Assembly (NCBI RefSeq): GCF_013343005.1
Contig: NZ_CP054491.1
Location: 620,001-684,000, forward strand
Length of the DNA stretch: 64,000 nt
Source of the DNA: Candidatus Reidiella endopervernicosa
GTDB taxonomy: Bacteria > Pseudomonadota > Gammaproteobacteria > GCF-013343005
Direction: 5' to 3'
In this document: one piece after another, positions 17,896 through 32,129 of the stretch
How the letters are laid out: each line of letters opens with the position of its first letter
Numbering within the stretch: position 1 is the first letter of the stretch
Program-made: the position numbers and the translations under genes
The notes under the pieces: generated by a model
What the model was told of the DNA's origin: nothing
What the model saw: the letters and a program-made list of their open reading frames with translations, nothing else
Databases searched by the model: none

Positions 17896-20800
17896 TTAGA
17901 GGGCGTTGAGTGCCTGGTTGAGTCGCTCTTCGATGCGTTTTTTGTGGTTGAGATAGTGAATTGTCTGCAGTGAGTCGACACCGCTATCGCTGATCATCGC
18001 CTTTGAGATGTCGATATCGGTGATGTAGATCGGGTAGCCCTCACCGCTGCTGCGCCGATCAAAGATGTCGCGTGCCACCTCCTGAAAGAGGGCGTCACCG
18101 TGTTCCAGGCTGGAGAACTCACGATCGTCACAGTAGATGGTAAAGACGGGGCGATCATCCATCAGGTCGCCGATTACCTGTACGTTGAAGTAGCGATGAA
18201 CGCCGGCAGAGTGCGGTACCTTGCGTGGTTCAAGCCGGAATTCGCCGGTATTGGTGTTCTTGACGATCTGGTAGAGCGAGACATCACCCTGGAAACCGGC
18301 CTCGCCGGTCTGCTCACTAATCATGAAGCTGAGACGTGGCAGTACCGTATCGAAGAACCACTGGTATTGAGTGAGCAGTGTGGCGCTGTCGTGGAAGGGA
18401 AGCTCCTGGTGGAACAGTGAACCGCGCTCATCGAGCACATAGATCTCAGCGGTTCCATCGTGGACCTGATAGAAGAACTGCACTGCGTTGCGTTTGTTGG
18501 CCTTGAACAGCAGCGGTAGTGGCGACTCCTTCAAGGTGTAGCGGTCGACGATGATCGGGCTGAACTCGGATTGTGTGGCTGAGAGTGCGCGCAGCAGGTC
18601 GTCCACCAGTCCGGCTGACTCGAAGGTGAGGCGGTCGTTCTTGGCGCTGAGGATGTAGAAACGATCCTTAATGCGCAGGATGTAGCGTGAGTTGGTGACG
18701 CTTCCTGGTGAGAAATAGCACTCCGAGACGTCGTGGTAGAGGTGTTCGATACGACGTGCGATCGAGTTACCGCGTGCAGATGAGAGCGAGTAGACCGAGA
18801 TCGATGCCGGTGGTTCGTTGGCGGAGATCGGAGAGTTCTCAAAATATTTACACAGGCTTCGCAGCACTGCAGTGTTGCCGCTGGCCCGATAGGTATGCAC
18901 CTCCTGCCAGCTATTAACGGTGATCTGGTCGAAGTGTAGCGCCAGGTTCTCCCAGGTGGCACCAAAGCTGAGCGCATCGGTACGGCCAGTGGTCAGGTGG
19001 GAGCCCATCAGGTGGGTGGTTGCGAGCGGATCGAAGCCGATGTTCACAAACAGTGCAGCGGCACGCACCTGTGCCGGTTTGGCCAGGTCGTCGAGGTCTG
19101 ATTTGGGTAGCTTGCCCTTGGGGAAGTTGCGCGAAAACGCCTCAATGGTGGCACGTAGCTCCTTCTCGGTCAGGTGGCTTGATTCGGTCTGTACAGTGAA
19201 CATCGTGCGCCGGGTAACGATATGGTTGAAGTGACACCAGGCGAGCAGTTCGAGCAGACTGCTGGCGCGTTTAACGGGTGTGTCAGCTAGCCGTGCCGTG
19301 CCAGGCAGGGTGAGATAGAGTGACCAGGTGTGGAGACCCTTATCGTCGCAGTTCTGCTGGAAGGTGAGGTGAGGTTCGCTCAGATCTTCTGAGATACCAG
19401 GATTGACCAGTTCAACCTTGCCCGCCTTACGCTCCAGGGCGGCATAGATCTTTCGCCCCAGGATATTGAGATCTGAAGGATTGATGTGGGCATCGTCGGC
19501 ATGCTCACGGATCAGTGCCGAGAGCATGCGATAGCTGAGAGTCAGTTCGTCGACCAGCATCTTGCGCTCCTTGAGCACCTGGTCGATCTTCCACCGCTGA
19601 CCGCCATGGATAGCGAAGCGAAGGCGGTTAGTCCGCGATAGTCGACGCCGTCTGCCTATTCGTAGTTGAGAGCGCGAGCGAACGACGAAGAAGATGCAGC
19701 AGCGGCTTTATGTCGGCGTAGAGTCACTGAGGGAGTTGTGTAGAGCCGCGAAGAGGTGATTACGCAACGAACGCAGGACGGTCGGGGCGCCGTAGGCATA
19801 AACGGTCGCGTTAAGTATTTGCCGCTTGCTTGGGCTTGATGCCCAAAACATGCTTCCGCAAAATAGCGACTCCCCGATCCGGGCGTGAGTCGAGCAGAAC
19901 AACATGCCCTTCGCCCCATCCCCAGTCCTGGGTGATCTCGCGTAGCAGTTCATGGCGCCACGTCTTGGCGTGGCGGTGGTGAGTGAGCGGTAGGTCGACC
20001 TTAAAGTAGAAGCAGCGGCGTGCCAGCTCGCGACGATCCCCCTCCATCTCCAGATACTCAGCCACCTTCTCATACATCATCACATAGGGGTCAAGATCAT
20101 CAAGGCTGGTGACGTTTTCAAATACGGCGCGTTTGTAACGCAGGCTGAGTAGATCGATGTTGGGGTGTTCGTTGGCGTAGGCCTCCATCACCAGGATCTT
20201 CAGTACCGACTTATAGGGAGAGTCGATGCCCTTGAAGAGCTGCCAGAGTGCGGCACCGATGAACTCCTCCGCAGGGATTCTGCTCAGACCACCAAAATCG
20301 ATCACATCGTGCTCTTTTACAAATCGCTGGCGTAGCAGCATCTGTGTGTAGTTGTCGTAGTCGTGCTCATGTTCGGGTGGGACCAGCCACCAGATCGGAA
20401 TCCGACCGGCGATGTGCAGGCCGGTGCGGTAGAACTCATCAAGCAGCAGGTTGTGCTGAGCACTACCGCTGCTCTCCTTAGAGAGTTCAGACTTCTCACC
20501 ACTACGGAACTTCTCGGCATCCATGAGGAAGAAGTGGACCTCAAGCCCCAGTGTCTCTGCCCACTTCTCAATCGCCTCCGCCTTCTGTTGCAGTTCGGCA
20601 ATCTGTGTTTCGCTTAGATCGGGGGTGTAACAGAGCCAGAAGTCGAAGTCGCTTTTGTCGGAGTAGGCGATGGTACCGCTACTGCCCATGACGAAGATCG
20701 ACTGAATGTAGGGGCGCAGCAGGGCGCGTCGTTTGTGTTCAAAGCCTTTGAATAACTTCTTGGTGGAGCCGACGATCGCTTTGGTGGGCTGGAAATCGTA

Positions 20801-25760: not shown

Positions 25761-26636
25761 TTGAAAAAGATAGTGGCAAAACTCAGAGAGAGTTTCTTTA
25801 AGCACTGCTTAACCCGACGATATATCAGTGATCGTTTTTATGAGTATCACGGCTATGCGCTGAATCTGAAAAACCCACGAACGCTCTCCGAAAAGCTTCA
25901 CTGGATAAAAGCCAACCACGATCTAAGGCAACTATCGCGCTATGTCGATAAAGAGAAGGTCAGGACCTTTGTGGAAGAACGGGTGGGTTCAGAGTTGTTA
26001 GTGCCGGTGATCGGTCTCTATGATCGCTTCGAGGAGATCGATTTTGATACGTTGCCCAGCAGCTTCATGTTAAAGACAACCCACGGTAGCGGTTGGAATA
26101 TCGAGGTAAAGTGTAAAGAGACGATTGACTGGCCTGCTACGGGTAGATGAGTGAACGCATGGCTAAAACGCTGTTACGACTCAAAGATTAGGGGCGAGGG
26201 TCAGTACCGAGGTATCAAGGGCCGCATCATCATCGAGAAGTATCTACGAGAAGAGGAGACTGATTTTCTCGATTACAGGATCTACTGTTTTTCAGGAGAG
26301 CCATTGCTTTTCCACGTAAGTATCGATGGCCCCGGTGGTGACTACTACCGTATCTATAACACTGAGTGGAAAGAGATCCCGAAAACGGATCTTGAGGCAG
26401 ACCGAAAGACGCCGAAGATTGAGAGACCAGACAACCTGGGTGAGCTGTTAGAGATAAGTCGAAAATTATCCCAGGATTTTCCCTTTGTGCGAGTCGACCT
26501 ATACGGCGTGCTTGGGAAAATCTACTTTAGTGAATTGACCTTCACGCCGAGCAACGGTTTGATTGTGCCAGATCCGGTCAAAATTGATCGGTTATTAGGG
26601 GATGCGCTCGATTTGGGTCTCTATAAGAGTGTCTAA
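25761..26636 (+). pseudogene. TupA-like ATP-grasp protein with an in-frame TGA
   Basis: ATP-grasp family protein (TupA/glycosyltransferase-associated), found in polysaccharide loci, where it may ligate glutamate or amino acids to sugars. The N-terminal half (LNLKNPRTLSEKLHWIKANH, LVPVIGLYDRFEEIDFDTLP, KTTHGSGWNI) and C-terminal half (GRIIIEKYLRE, DYRIYCFSGEPLLFHV, FPFVRVDLYGV) are in one frame but separated by a single TGA codon at 26148-26150 (GGT AGA TGA GTG AAC). Conservation continues on both sides without an indel, so this looks like one nonsense change. A restart at GTG 26151 is possible but would lack the first ATP-grasp half. Confidence 0.8.
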
Positions 26637-26658: not shown

Positions 26659-26913
26659 CTATTTTTGATAATCGGTCGGTTTTTCAAGATCGAAGATGGA
26701 GCCTGAAATTTCATCAACCTTTAGTGCCATCAGTGCTTGTGCATCATAAACACCACGATTGTAAAAATATGAACCGATCTCAGTAGCAAAAAAGTCGATA
26801 AGAAATTCGGCCTCAAAACCACCGATCTCCTGATCGAGCTCCTCCCTGAAATAGAGCTTCACCTTCTGCGCTATCTGCTGCTTCTCTTCTGGAGAAAATT
26901 TAATCTCACTCAC
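26659..26913 (-). CDS. DUF2164 family protein
   Basis: Small 84-residue protein (KFSPEEKQQIAQKVKLYFRE, ...FLIDFFATEIGSYFYNRGVYDAQ) matching the DUF2164 pattern, a short cytoplasmic family of unknown function. Length is normal for the family. A clean ATG is present. It is convergent with the ATP-grasp gene. Confidence 0.8.
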   Translation of the reverse strand: MSEIKFSPEEKQQIAQKVKLYFREELDQEIGGFEAEFLIDFFATEIGSYFYNRGVYDAQALMALKVDEISGSIFDLEKPTDYQK

Positions 26914-26974
26914 AGGAGTCTCGATATGGTTGTTTAAAATACTCAGATCACTTTACCATATTGTTGGTGTTCGA

Positions 26975-27363
26975 CTAATCCTCATCACCAGGCATGTCAC
27001 GGTACGCTACTTCGCCGACCTCGAAGCCTGTAATATTCAGTGATGCCAGAAAGTTGTGATAGCCATCAAGGGAATCGTAGGGGCCATGAATTCCTTGCAT
27101 CGCTGTCCACTTGTCACCAGTTCCGAAATCCATAATGTAGAGTTTTTTATTGTAGTTAAACGCCGTAACCCAGTGGTGCGGTGGTCCGTCATTGTTCCAT
27201 ATAAAGCCCCATCGAGCATTGTGGGCAGGATCTATTTTATTGAGGCTTTTCAGAGCGAAGTTAGCAGAGTCACCGCAGTGGTCGGGAGGCAGTTTCTCAA
27301 AGATCTTTTAGTCTCCTCCTCGGTGATAATGGGGGCCTCTTCGAGTATTGCGTCCAGTTTCAT
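26975..27363 (-). pseudogene. Unrecognised small protein with Cys/His/Asp motifs, one frameshift
   Basis: Read from ATG 27363: MKLDAILEEAPIITEEETK, then after adding one A in the AAAA run near 27310 the frame continues KIFEKLPPDHCGDSANFALKS... WGFIWNNDGPPHHWVTAFNY... and ends RDMPGDED at 26975, about 129 residues. The order Cys (DHCGDS), His (PPHHWVTAF), Asp (YIMDFGTGD) resembles a papain-like or transglutaminase-like cysteine hydrolase, but this is inference from the motif spacing only. Without the correction the frame ends in 37 residues. Confidence 0.5.
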
Positions 27364-27739
27364 GAGTATCATCCCTAGTGTGCTCGGCTGTTTTAACGAA
27401 CTGGATATCCATTTCAACCAGTAACCGATATACATAATTATTGTTATGAAATAGAGAAATACTGTTCACACAATGTCGGTGATAAGCCATCAGCCAAAGG
27501 TATGAATTTGATGTTGTCTAGAGGGTGTGCCGATGTGAGATGAGCGGTGGGAGTAGAGTGTAATAGTGAGGAGTATGGAAATTCTCTGTTTGTTTGTCAG
27601 CGTGTTTGCTTAACGCTAATCGTGGTTAGAACACAGTGTTATCCAATAATAGAATTAATTGTGTTCTAAACCCGATTTAATTGCACAAGAAAGTAACAAC
27701 AAAAACTAAGTTTCATCTGATCCCACTTATCGATGGCTT
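27364..27739. other. Gene-free stretch before the cassette array
   Basis: AT-rich region with no convincing gene on either strand. It holds near 27630-27675 two copies of an inverted motif built around GAACACAGTGTTATCC and GAATTAATTGTGTTC. It separates the preceding gene from the first attC-like site. Confidence 0.5.
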
Positions 27740-27832
27740 GTTAAACCTAGCGATCCAGCTCAGGCGACCGTTACCGCAGAGCGACTAAAAGAGCGGCGCG
27801 GCAGTGGGTCGACCTGAAGCGCCGTGTTAGGC
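27740..27832 (-). repeat. attC-like recombination site 1
   Basis: Ends in GTTAGGC (27826-27832), a proper R' box (GTTRRRY), and starts GTTAAAC, close to RYYYAAC. Inner arms CAGGCGACC and GGTCGACCTG pair with one extrahelical base, a hallmark of integron attC sites. It follows the 3' end of the cassette gene at 27898-28255. Confidence 0.65.
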
Positions 27833-27897
27833 ATGACTTCATTGACTTAAAATCCTTTTCGATAAATCTGGGTCTATCTGTGGTGGTTCCTCAGGCG

Positions 27898-28255
27898 CTA
27901 CCTGAGGGCCAACAAGAACACATTTTCCGCCTTACACTCAGACTTACTAAACTTCTGAAATCTACAATCCCGGGCAATCTCGTTGGTCATGACAGAATTC
28001 CGCCACAGATTTTCATACCGCTTAGCCGTTTTCACAGTCTCTGAGAGCAGCTCTTTATCATTTGTTGATATTGCGAATTCATAATTTAATATAGCGCAAT
28101 CAGCCCACCCTAATGTTAACGATGAGCAATCTTTATTCACACTACAACTCGCCTTGTTCGATAGCTCATTCAATTTACTTAACAGGCTTTTGCATTTTAT
28201 CAGCCACGGAAATAAATGGCTGAGAAAATAATAAAGCAGCTATGAGTAACCTCAT
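27898..28255 (-). pseudogene. Cassette gene: small secreted Cys-rich protein, frameshifted
   Basis: ATG 28255 gives a signal-peptide-like start MRLLIAALLFSQPFISVADK. One surplus base in the AAAA run near 28202 shifts the frame; the protein then continues CKSLLSKLNELSNKASCSV and ends at 27898. The mature part has several Cys residues (SCSV, KDCSS, ADCAI, RDCRF, SECKAE). No family is recognised. It sits directly after a GTTAGGC site (minus strand) and before attC 1, the layout of an integron cassette. Confidence 0.55.
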
Positions 28256-28263
28256 TTATATTT

Positions 28264-28375
28264 GCCTAACTATTAGATTGCATATGTGTCATTCGCCTAT
28301 GTATTTCCCATTGGTAGATATTATAAAATCAGTACTAATTGGCGCAAATGCTCTTAACCCACCATCATCTATAGA
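28264..28375 (-). repeat. Cassette boundary with degenerate attC site
   Basis: GCCTAACTATTAG at 28264 reads GTTAGGC on the minus strand immediately before the preceding cassette gene's start, the expected R' box. The other half of the site is degenerate. No gene is seen in this stretch. Confidence 0.4.
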
Positions 28376-28447
28376 GAAGAATCGGTACCAGAGAGCAATT
28401 GTTTATTATATTAAAGTGTATTGCTCTCTGGCCCGGTTTTTCTTAAA
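28376..28447. repeat. Palindromic repeat, copy A (GTACCAGAGAGCAAT...ATTGCTCTCTGG)
   Basis: A roughly 70-bp sequence with arms CGGTACCAGAGAGCAAT and ATTGCTCTCTGGCCCGG around an AT-rich loop. A near-identical copy lies at 30409-30478. Each forms the 3' end of a cassette gene, so both proteins finish with the same residues (ESNTL). Confidence 0.75.
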
Positions 28448-29773
28448 TGCTCCTCACAGCTATCAACGACATGATCTACCAAAACAGATAGCGACCCTGA
28501 TTCATAAGTTACTATAGGTAAAACCCATTGATATTTCTTGAAGTGTTCAAACATACCATATTCTTCGCTTGATGATTCTAGAATTGGCTGAACTGGAACA
28601 GAAGGCAAGTGAGGAATAATTGCTGTTAATTCTTGAGGTATGCTTCGTGGATCAGATAGATCAGCGACAATAAATTTAGATAGCGTTGCTAGGGTTATGA
28701 CAGTTTCGGTAATGTCACGGGTTGCTGGCACTTCAAAATCAAATAACACGGCCAAGTAACCATGTTGATCTAATTGATCTTTTATATCGTCAAGAACTTT
28801 CGCTGACCGCCATGGAGAGCGAAGTGAGGGCGGTTAGTCCCCGATAGTCGACGCCGTCTGCCTATTCGTAGTTGAGAGCGCGAGCGAACGACGGAGAAGA
28901 TGCAGCAGCGGCTTTATGTCGGCGAAGAGTCACTGGAGGAGTTGTGTAGAGCCGCGAAGAGGTGATTACGCAACGAACGCAGGACGTCGGGGCGCCGCAG
29001 GCATAAACGGTCGCGTGAAGTTTTTGCTGTTTGCTTGGGCTTGGGTGCCCAAAACAAACTTTCGCAAAATAGCGACTCCCCGGTTTCCTCTCTGGAGTAA
29101 ACCTTCCCAATATAAGCACAACCTTAGAGGTAATTGTTTCGATTACTTGGCGAAGATTCTTGCTATTTACTAAAAGAGATATGAATTGCGCAAGCTCTAT
29201 TGTTGAGCTGTAATTGATCTATGGACTCGTAAATAGCAATATTGGCTTGTTTGCATCCATCAAGTTTTAAATCCCAAGCTGAAACTCCATGGGCACATGC
29301 ACCATCAATTTGTGCATTTGTGAAGTCGGTTTTACTAAACTCATGTTGCTTAGATTTGTACCAAGCAGAATTGAACCAGTAAAGTTTGTTTCTTCTGCGC
29401 TACAGTAGGAAAGGTCAGTGTTGGTGAAGTTGCAATCAATAAAATTGGCTGAACCAATCTTAGAAACGTTTAATTCAGAACCGCTGAAGTTACACCTCAA
29501 ACAATACGAATCTACTAAATCGGAAAAATGAAAGTAACAGCCGGAAAAGTCACACTCAATGAAAGTGCTATTTCTCATCGAAACTCGATTCATGTTTGTC
29601 TGCGAAAAGTTGTAACCTTGAAATTCAGGGAGGTCGTAAAACCCATCTCCAGGACAAACAGACACAAAGTCAATATCGCCAAGATCCACGTTATGACCTT
29701 CATTAGTGTTGCGCCATCGGTTCCATGCGTCAGCACCAGAATTCAGCATTTCTATGCATTTATCAGTTGGCAA
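28411..29773 (-). pseudogene. Pentapeptide-repeat protein with C-terminal Rossmann/TIR-like domain, frameshifted and interrupted by element copy 2
   Basis: Starts at TTG 29773 (MPTDKCIEMLNSGADAWNRW). The first 150 residues are pentapeptide repeats (FSQTNMNRVSMRNSTFIECD). One missing A near 29327 and a +1 shift near 29195 must be allowed before the C-terminal domain: LRQVIETITSKVVLILGRFTPERKP, then the 280-bp element at 28802-29081, then KVLDDIKDQLDQHGYLAVLFDF, TRDITETVITLATLSKFIVAD and IPQELTAIIPHLPSVPVQP. Deleting the element joins the two parts in frame. Proteins pairing pentapeptide repeats with this C-terminal domain are common in bacteria, with unknown function; the domain may be TIR- or nucleosidase-like. 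It lies between attC-like sites, so it is a cassette. Confidence 0.78.
28802..29081 (-). mobile_element. 280-bp intron-like repeat element, copy 2 (in pentapeptide-repeat gene)
   Basis: In host sense it lies after ...GAGAGGAAACC and before GAAAGTTC. It belongs to the second subfamily (GTTTGTTTTGGGC hairpin arm pairing with GCCCAAGCAAAC). The terminal hairpin arm reads GAGAGCGAAGTGAGG on the plus strand where other copies have GATAGCGAAGCGAAGG, so it is one of the more divergent copies. Confidence 0.82.
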
Positions 29774-29778
29774 GATAG

Positions 29779-30345
29779 TTACCTAGTGAATCTAACGATT
29801 GAATTAAACCGCACCGCTTTTGGCGTCGGTTTGAATGACTGGTTAGGCGTTTTGTCAAACCTTAGCCAAATATCTGCCACCCAGATTTTAGGAGTGCCTT
29901 TGGTGTTTATCGTATATTTCTCAAATTCTACTATTGTGCTCACATAACCACCCTTTTGTAGCTCGGTCTCGATTTCTTGGAATAGCTGGGTTGTTTTAAA
30001 GGCTGCTGAAAAACTTTTAATTAAAGGACGCAACGTAGGATTATGTAAATTACCTGACGAAGCTAGTGCTTTCTCGAGTTCATTAGGAATTTTTCTTTTG
30101 TAATAAGAAATAAGTTCTCTATTTGATATTTCTGAAAATTCACCGAGAATACGGACAGCAACTGAGTCCTTTTCAATTTCTATTTCCTTGAGTATTTGAG
30201 AAAATGCTTTTCCTTTTCCTAATCCATATTGTAGCTGTACAAAGAAATACTTTTCGCGTGTTTCGGTAGTGCTGAGCTGAAACTGTTCAGCAGTAGCGGT
30301 CACAGAAAAGAGATATAAGGCTATGAGATATAAAAGTTTCTTCAT
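29779..30345 (-). CDS. Cassette gene: secreted protein of unknown function
   Basis: 188 residues starting with a signal peptide (MKKLLYLIALYLFSVTATA-EQF), then a mostly helical soluble domain. The last 21 residues (NQSFKPTPKAVRFNSIVRFT) are translated from attC site 2, a known by-product of cassette structure, so the functional protein probably ends near residue 166. No family recognised. It starts 8 bp after a GCCTAAC box, as expected for a cassette gene. Confidence 0.65.
   Translation of the reverse strand: MKKLLYLIALYLFSVTATAEQFQLSTTETREKYFFVQLQYGLGKGKAFSQILKEIEIEKDSVAVRILGEFSEISNRELISYYKRKIPNELEKALASSGNLHNPTLRPLIKSFSAAFKTTQLFQEIETELQKGGYVSTIVEFEKYTINTKGTPKIWVADIWLRFDKTPNQSFKPTPKAVRFNSIVRFTR
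29790..29848 (-). repeat. attC recombination site 2 (59 bp)
   Basis: Perfect end boxes ATCTAAC (29790-29796) and GTTAGGC (29842-29848). Inner arms GATTGAATTAAACCG and CGGTTTGAATGACTG pair with extrahelical bases. The 59-bp length is the classic attC size. This is the best attC site of the window. Confidence 0.85.
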
Positions 30346-30352
30346 TTTCTTC

Positions 30353-30408
30353 GCCTAACTATTATTAGACACCCTAAAAGCTCCATTACAAACGGAGCAT
30401 TTAGGGTG
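30353..30408 (-). repeat. attC-like boundary with CACCCTAAA hairpin (copy 1)
   Basis: GCCTAAC at 30353-30359 followed by TATTATTAGACACCCTAAA and a hairpin CACCCTAAAAGCTCC/GGAGCATTTAGGGTG. The same unit occurs at 31760-31813. It seems to be a lineage-specific attC type or a terminator fused to the cassette end; no second R box is evident. Confidence 0.5.
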
Positions 30409-30478
30409 AAAGAATCGGTACCAGAGAGCAATTGTTTATTATATTAGAGTGTATTGCTCTCTGCCCCGGTTTTTCCTA
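30409..30478. repeat. Palindromic repeat, copy B
   Basis: Second copy of the palindrome at 28376, differing at a few positions (TTAGAGTG for TTAAAGTG; CTGCCCCGG for CTGGCCCGG). It forms the end of the small gene at 30444-30614. Confidence 0.75.
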
Positions 30479-30614
30479 ATGAAACAAGCCTATATGCAGA
30501 GTGCATATGCCAACTTGGTAAATAATTCGTTGAATATACATAAACCATAAACAACCCAACACATACAGCCGTGACGGATGTTGTTTCTAGTGTTGGGAGC
30601 TTTTGTTTGCTCAG
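30444..30614 (-). CDS. Possible small membrane protein of the cassette array
   Basis: From CTG 30614 about 56 residues: SKQKLPTLETTSVTAVCVGL, a hydrophobic segment (VTAVCVGLFMVYVY), then YLPSWHMHSAYRLVSLGKTG and the repeat-derived end AESNTL. It lies right after attC site 3 in cassette orientation. The start codon is weak and no homologue is recognised; it may be non-coding. Confidence 0.3.
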   Translation of the reverse strand: MSKQKLPTLETTSVTAVCVGLFMVYVYSTNYLPSWHMHSAYRLVSLGKTGAESNTL

Positions 30615-30620
30615 TATTAA

Positions 30621-30724
30621 CCCTAACGTTTCAGCTAAACCGACCGCTGGAGCGGTGCATGTTTTGTGCGATCTGCACAATAAATGTGCCGCGGAGGTGG
30701 GTCGGATGAAGCACCTTGTTATGC
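30621..30724 (-). repeat. attC-like recombination site 3
   Basis: Boxes CCCTAAC (30621-30627) and GTTATGC (30718-30724), with inner arms AAACCGACC and GGTCGGATGAAGC. The stop codon of the gene at 30719-31270 lies in the R box (GCATAAC on the minus strand), typical for cassettes. Confidence 0.72.
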
Positions 30725-31270
30725 ATTGTTGTCCTTGCACTTGTTTCTAAATAGCTCGATAGGTAAGTCCCCAAGTCCTCGTATACGATCACCAGAATAA
30801 GTCATAGACATTCTCGTAATTGCCGGAGATCCAGTAAAGAAAATAACAATTCCATCTCCATAGCTTGTATTTTCGCTTGGATAATAACTAGAAGAATGAT
30901 ACTCATCTCCAATGTCGTAATAAATGGTGATGTCATCATCCTTCTTTAAAAACTCCGTTATTATTGCTTTCATTTGTCCGTCAGGAGCAGGCTCGTACTT
31001 TGCTATTGCTATAGCACTAGACTGACTAATTTGTTCATCTATTCCTAGCTCGTGGAATGGGGTTGTCGGTGCCCTGGCTACGGGTGGTTTGTGGAGTATA
31101 GATGACCTGTTCTCTGGAACAATTGCTATTGGCTGTTGTTCGTTAAGTTGCTCTATCTGTGAGTTTATAATTATCGGCTGAATCAGATAAGCAGCTACGC
31201 ACCATAAAGCAATAAATGAGATGGCAAATCCACTGCCAAACACAAGCCCATCAGTAAACTTTTTGATCAT
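30719..31270 (-). CDS. Cassette gene: membrane-anchored protein of unknown function
   Basis: 183 residues from ATG 31270, chosen for the GGAAG 5 bp upstream; an ATG at 31288 lies in the attC site. One transmembrane segment (GFAISFIALWCVAAYLIQPIII) near the N terminus, a Pro-rich stretch (KPPVARAPTTPF), then a soluble domain (KKDDDITIYYDIGDEYHSSS). No family recognised. It is bounded by attC 4 upstream and attC 3 downstream. Confidence 0.65.
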   Translation of the reverse strand: MIKKFTDGLVFGSGFAISFIALWCVAAYLIQPIIINSQIEQLNEQQPIAIVPENRSSILHKPPVARAPTTPFHELGIDEQISQSSAIAIAKYEPAPDGQMKAIITEFLKKDDDITIYYDIGDEYHSSSYYPSENTSYGDGIVIFFTGSPAITRMSMTYSGDRIRGLGDLPIELFRNKCKDNNA

Positions 31271-31284
31271 GTATCTTCCTTTAT

Positions 31285-31368
31285 GCATAACGCCAGTAAT
31301 AAGGGGCCGAGGCGAAGCCGAGATCCCAGCAGCCCCAAAGGGGATGCGCCTTGATTTTCTTGTTATGT
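31285..31368 (-). repeat. attC-like recombination site 4
   Basis: Boxes GCATAAC (31285-31291) and GTTATGT (31362-31368), with a GC-rich inner palindrome (AAGGGGCCGAGGCG..., AGCCCCAAAGGGG). It lies just after the stop of the cassette gene at 31376. Confidence 0.75.
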
Positions 31369-31375
31369 GTTTTCT

Positions 31376-31749
31376 TCATTGTTGGCTTGGGAATGGGTGG
31401 TGTTTGACAAGCCCCCATTTGCCATCTGCTTTTTCTGAGCCACGTGCTTCAAGTTCAACTAGAAGCCGCTTTGTTTCTTCCTCACTAGTTCCTACTACCG
31501 CAGAAAGAGTTTCGAGATAGCGCCATTTATCTGGGAAACGATCATCTTCAAGCATGAGCTTGAGTGTTGCCTTTCTTTTCGCATCCAGATCTTTCTGCGG
31601 CTTTTCTTTGAACTTGTGCAAGATGATATTGCCGCCAGTGTGAGCAATGAATCGACGATACCTCCAAGGATTCCGATCAGCGCTATCCAGAACTTTGTGT
31701 CGGAAACCACCTGGGTGGAAATTATTGTAGCCAGTGTCGATTCATCCAT
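31376..31749 (-). pseudogene. Cassette gene: small membrane protein with winged-helix-like C terminus, frameshifted
   Basis: ATG 31749: MDESTLATIISTQVVSDTKF, a hydrophobic helix (WIALIGILGGIV), a one-base loss near 31660, then FIAHTGGNIILHKFKEKPQK and a C-terminal domain (LMLEDDRFPDKWRYLETLSA, GTSEEETKRLLVELEARGSE, GKWGLVKHHP). I recall similar unnamed proteins in many bacteria with the same membrane-helix plus small domain layout; function unknown. Confidence 0.6.
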
Positions 31750-31759
31750 GTTTTTTCTC

Positions 31760-31835
31760 ACATAACTATTATTAGACACCCTAAAAGCACCATTACAAAC
31801 GGAGCATTTAGGGTGTATAGAAAACTTTGTTGTAT
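31760..31835 (-). repeat. attC-like site 5 with CACCCTAAA hairpin (copy 2)
   Basis: Boxes ACATAAC (31760-31766) and GTTGTAT (31829-31835). The interior TATTATTAGACACCCTAAA and TTTAGGGTGTATAG pair. It shares about 48 bp with the unit at 30353. Confidence 0.55.
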
Positions 31836-32129
31836 GAAAACAAGGGGTTAACTCCAGAAAACGGAGCCCAAATGAAGAGGCTAAGAGAGCATCCTGTTTG
31901 ATGCCGGATGTGGTTGTTTCGAGTTGGGTGGTTCTGGATGGATTCGTCTTCATTGGGCTTCCTGCCTTTTCGTTTATTGTTATAGCGCCGGTAATGCTGC
32001 CGTGATCTGTTTGCTGAGAATCTACTACGCGCCATATAAAATCAAGTGGATGTAAGAGGACTCAAGGCTGTATTACGGCAAGTAGCTCGTATGGTGTGAA
32101 CCGTTTCCTAGGAAGTGATTTATCTAATT
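31836..32129. other. End of the cassette array, no confident gene
   Basis: A minus-strand open frame from 31953 (MKTNPSRTTQLETTTSGIKQ) runs into the attC-like site and may be fortuitous. GTTATAG at 31979 could be another R box remnant. No integron integrase is present here or elsewhere in the window. Confidence 0.4.

Follow-up and report, generated by a model that had tools for sequence, protein, structure and literature searches.

A probable attI-headed cassette array, lacking an integrase gene of its own and in decay, in a bacterial chromosome

The stretch of DNA which we analysed (hereafter the window) is 64 kb in length and comprises bases 620001-684000 of a complete 3,446,950-bp chromosome (C1). 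On its minus strand, reading from 31891 to 27745, we found an array in the order attI, g1-attC, g2-attC, orfX-(truncated attI), g3-attC, g4-(truncated attI) and g5-attC. The features of the array, in window positions, are as follows.

31760-31891, minus strand: attI copy F, almost complete, which heads the array and has its crossover G^TTATGT at 31766-31760
31376-31749, minus strand: g1, a frameshifted cassette gene in two overlapping frames
31285-31368, minus strand: attC D (R1 30.2 bits, E 8.3e-6)
30719-31270, minus strand: g2, an intact cassette gene with an open frame, the stop codon of which lies within R'' of attC C
30621-30724, minus strand: attC C (R1 22.4 bits, E 0.001)
30480-30620, minus strand: orfX, a short open frame placed between attC C and truncated attI E, presumed to be a cassette remnant without attC
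30410-30479, minus strand: palindromic repeat D1, copy 2, 96% identical to copy 1
30353-30408, minus strand: truncated attI E, consisting of the hairpin and the crossover GTTAGGC, recognised by its similarity to the intI-adjacent attI
29779-30345, minus strand: g3, a cassette gene intact in translation, with a signal-peptide-like N-terminus
29790-29848, minus strand: attC B (R1 29.5 bits, E 1.3e-5)
28411-29782, minus strand: g4, a cassette gene in several frames for a pentapeptide-repeat protein with a C-terminal domain (PF00805, E 3.7e-16)
28799-29082, listed on the minus strand with its orientation not fixed: MITE-like repeat of ~283 bp inserted in g4, one of six window copies which are 93-95% identical
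28377-28446, minus strand: palindromic repeat D1, copy 1, from a repeat search
28264-28277, minus strand: candidate truncated attI G, the 14-nt core TCTAATAGTTAGGC only, which resembles the ends of E and F
27898-28255, minus strand: g5, a cassette gene frameshifted as judged from its frames
27745-27832, minus strand: attC A (R1 26.4 bits, E 8.8e-5), with the crossover core GCT instead of GTT

The attC sites were located with a covariance model (R1) built from 10 attCs from other genera and none from the host genome. Salinisphaera contributed six of the ten, and the source loci (Salinisphaera, a Burkholderiales MAG, Verrucomicrobia and Akkermansiaceae MAGs and one unclassified bacterial MAG) were found via an IntI search. 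When run across the 64-kb window with filters off, R1 gave four strong matches, all on the minus strand and all inside 27740-31990, and beyond those four nothing better than E 0.8. Comparison with the open reading frames placed every one of these attCs at the 3' end of a minus-strand gene. The initial annotation had proposed an array with four to six attC-like sites and had named a lack of attC covariance-model matches as the result which would speak against it; with this independent model the matches are present and the array stands, with four sites. The site which had been singled out as the best, attC B, is indeed a canonical attC, scoring above every shuffle match. It is 59 bp long and on the minus strand reads GCCTAAC-CAGTC-ATT[C]AAACCG ... 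CGGTTTAAT-TCAATC-GTTAGAT, that is R''-5 nt-L'' (with one extra, extrahelical base)-loop-L'-6 nt-R', and because this canonical order is read on the minus strand its orientation is that of the minus-strand genes. A hand-written, rule-based structural score gave 18.7 for this site, compared to a maximum of 16.8 in 12 dinucleotide shuffles of the window. attC C scores 61.4 bits under a model of the host genome's own attCs, of which it is itself a member, and the covariation of the R and L stems in 16 host-genome attCs exceeds that of all of 500 shuffles. Rfam at gathering thresholds gave no match in the window, and a tRNA search of the window found none.

It had also been suggested that one protein end is encoded by an attC, and this agrees with the translation of g3, the last ~22 residues of which (...FKPTPKAVRFNSIVRFTR) are encoded by attC B. 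Family searches with g1, g2, g3 and g5 were without a match (Pfam, NCBIfam and PADLOC for g2). Three of the five cassette genes (g1, g4 and g5) are broken, with g4, whose C-terminal domain shares 66% identity with a Vibrio pentapeptide protein, disrupted both by frameshifts and by the MITE-like insert. Other window copies of this MITE-like repeat lie near 19595, 40743, 56586, 59143 and 60641, and a further 166 kb of the host genome, taken from other stretches, contains 34 copies, some of them within genes. Repeat D1 (70 nt) precedes both attI stubs of the window and is also found at C1 335-338, 511, 779, 783, 1752 and 1941 kb; it lies within 4 kb of an att site at 5/6 loci vs 2.9% of random positions, using a cut-off which was picked after inspection of the data. 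To the left of the array, 26659-27400 contains a DUF2164 gene and a frameshifted small ORF with no attC, which may be old cassettes minus their sites. At 25761-26636 a TupA-like ATP-grasp gene is divided in two by an in-frame stop, either further decay or a sequence error near the array.

The elements at 30353 and 31760 had been described initially as a second attC class with an unusual CACCCTAAA hairpin. We rejected this assignment, as R1 gives 8 bits at 30353 and nothing at 31760 and both elements match attI. A repeat search returned 64-nt repeats at 30345-30408 and 31752-31815 which contain the hairpins of E and F, and the matching attI is the region between the intI of the host genome and its first cassette, 400 kb from the array. 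F is 78% identical to this attI over 132 nt (E 3.4e-21) and E is 86% identical over 50 nt (30356-30405, E 5.7e-9). As the first cassette, g1 is joined directly to an attI copy, and this junction is not of the attG type (non-attI, non-attC). Further into the array, attI stubs are found in place of attC: orfX is followed by E (56 nt) and g4 by G (14 nt), and R1 detects no attC at either position. With its 14 nt, G is the weakest and least certain of the three attI sites in the window. A putative Pc (TTGTTT-N17/18-TATAC(A/C)) is conserved by eye in three attI copies, and a sigma-70 scan does not call it.

In a class-wide DNA search of 369 genomes, the attI core was found in three other genera. 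In two of them, which are unrelated, the core is found immediately upstream of an intI with similarity only in its N-terminal part, and this placement beside intI in other genera is the strongest evidence that the hairpin elements are attI. The third genus (G192; L122 9846-12011) has a core which is identical to that of the window at 23/24 nt and which heads a cassette named TIR-like by eye from its sequence, followed by two attCs. No intI was found within about 10 kb on either side, and this locus is a possible second attI-headed integrase-less array. The attI core was not found in the viral contigs searched, and attI F, D1 and g3 had no relatives in the plasmid collection. A Salinisphaera genome searched in full contains a single attI copy. 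No real attI duplication was seen at 15 other integron loci, some of which have an uncertain intI start or an uncertain or short upstream stretch; local "attI duplications" in Pseudoalteromonas (L065) and Colwellia (L070) were actually duplicated cassettes.

A search of the window with TIGR02249 returned no IntI, in agreement with the initial annotation. The description of the array as integrase-less is therefore correct locally; it does not extend to the chromosome as a whole, which contains one intI, broken as assembled. This only intI of the genome (C1:247116-248050, TIGR02249 match) is 59% identical to the Salinisphaera IntI over 317 columns of a frameshift-aware alignment, with the IntI-specific region present, and contains five single-base frameshifts and zero in-frame nonsense codons. 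It may be a young pseudogene. Some of the frameshifts may be indels of the assembly; both Xer-like genes are nevertheless open. The other TIGR02249 matches are these two intact genes, which resemble XerC/XerD (598 and 2697 kb), and a short one at 2066 kb. A heavily deleted IntI-like tyrosine recombinase occupies C1:2066.4-2066.7 kb on the minus strand, ~2 kb upstream of another attC array.

For the attCs of the whole chromosome we used a second model (R2), built from the host genome's own attCs; as 150 candidates were scored, its genome-wide counts are lower bounds. R2 detected at least 25 attCs at E below 0.01 in nine chromosomal places (248-250, 337, 648-651, 1748, 1846, 1901-1902, 1939, 2068-2070 and 2995-3001 kb). 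Two of these attC clusters span C1:2994760-3000986 and C1:1846385-1847406. Among the arrays away from intI, only those of the window and of 1.90 Mb are headed by attI. The further attI copies, in chromosomal positions, are listed below.

782980-783048: attI copy which has lost an internal segment between two GCTCCGTT repeats, with no attC detected
1904643-1904770: attI copy at the head of the 1.90 Mb array

When the five clear attI copies were aligned, all were found to diverge right after AATAG^TT(A) and to continue into different genes, as would be expected if each were an attI with a different inserted cassette. The copies are still about 80% identical and share nearly the same starting point, which in three of them is 10-13 bp ahead of the intI start codon. 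We sought traces of intI next to the attI copies and none adjoin them.

We think it likely that this region is an attI-headed, integrase-less array which was formerly served in trans by IntI and is now decaying. The single IntI, encoded ~400 kb away beside its own attI, would have inserted circular cassettes at F by attI x attC recombination, and we infer that the array was built up in this way at a second attI (31.8 kb). The truncated sites E and G are, by analogy with class 1 and 2 integrons, most likely of delta-attI type: a crossover inside attI would give a circle with a gene followed by an attI stub, not an attC. The "orfX-attI stub" cassette is a reconstruction, orfX being a short remnant. 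As genes with an attI stub upstream are reported not to have been excised (PMC12901181), g3 and g5 may have become fixed in place. The present stage would be one of decay, with intI frameshifted as assembled, 3/5 genes broken, one attC core mutated and a MITE-like repeat inserted.

Two other explanations may be considered. It is highly improbable that this is a plain CALIN, with cassettes inserted at ordinary attG sites or left behind by rearrangement and with the hairpins as an unrelated small mobile repeat near cassettes. Most other arrays of the chromosome do have attC and no attI copy, and small repeats (MITE, D1) are abundant in the host genome; however, the hairpin element sits exactly between intI and the first cassette in the host genome, its core adjoins intI in two other genera, and every clear copy stops exactly at the crossover point before a different gene. 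Several whole integrons (intI, attI and cassettes) may instead have been present once, with all intI but one deleted, which we regard as unlikely. The near full-length F is what duplication of a platform would leave, and the deleted IntI-like remnant at 2.066 Mb lies near another array, but the N-terminus of this remnant looks longer, and our search for attI gave no copy next to it. With attI copies which are so similar, an equally old intI ought still to be recognised, but there is no trace of one adjoining them; together with the shared start of the copies, this argues against duplication of whole integrons, although all attI copies could descend from one truncated copy.

The array served in trans, which we prefer, may also be part of something wider. 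In a distributed integron the attI region (~125 bp, stopping 10-13 bp before intI starts) would be a copyable module present at several loci, each of them a cassette entry platform served in trans by one IntI and perhaps also serving expression. We put this forward tentatively, as a possibility which is rather doubtful at present; if it is true, the array in G192 would be a possible second case.

CALINs are numerous, and loss of intI, rearrangement and attG insertion have been proposed as their origins. The working definition of a CALIN (cluster of attC sites lacking an integron integrase, in the sense of IntegronFinder) requires two or more attCs within about 4 kb and no nearby intI; here there are four attCs with gaps of 561-1958 bp, as located with R1, and the nearest intI is at 247 kb while the array is at 648-652 kb. 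The array can thus be called CALIN-like, as it was initially, in that it has several attCs in one orientation, small genes without known function and no intI nearby. It is unlike a plain CALIN in that it is headed by a near-complete attI copy and contains truncated attI sites. An attI at the array head (31760-31891, E 3.4e-21) is a property of complete integrons, but a functional intI next to attI is lacking, with none in the window and five frameshifts in that of the genome as assembled. CALINs are common in genomes which are losing intI, such as Xanthomonas, and decaying intI is well known (PMC12444791). Insertion of cassettes at attG sites explains arrays away from intI (Loot et al. 2024, as cited in PMC12444791); the acceptor at the window locus, however, is an attI copy and not a generic genomic site. 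As in a sedentary chromosomal integron, intI, attI and the first attC-bearing cassettes of the host genome lie at 247-250 kb, but only about three attCs are found beside this intI, which is broken as assembled, and the other arrays are scattered over the chromosome.

E and G are each an attI fragment ending in GTTRRRY which replaces attC after a gene, and in this they resemble the delta-attI cassettes of class 1 and 2 integrons. In those cassettes an attI fragment comes after the gene and stops at the crossover; they are proposed to arise by a crossover within attI, and IntI1 has been shown to excise them (PMC12901181). Unlike those cassettes, the window stubs are chromosomal and decaying, derive from a different attI, of which they retain 14 and 56 nt, and have a palindromic repeat before them. 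Dispersed attI copies heading chromosomal arrays were not found in our searches of the open-access literature. That an integrase-less array is headed by an attI copy suggests one more route to CALINs, the capture of cassettes at duplicated attI sites, and attI-headed arrays without an integrase can be searched for in other genomes. CALINs and, in mobile integrons, truncated-attI cassettes are known already; the unusual part of the present case is the dispersal of attI copies without intI in a chromosome.
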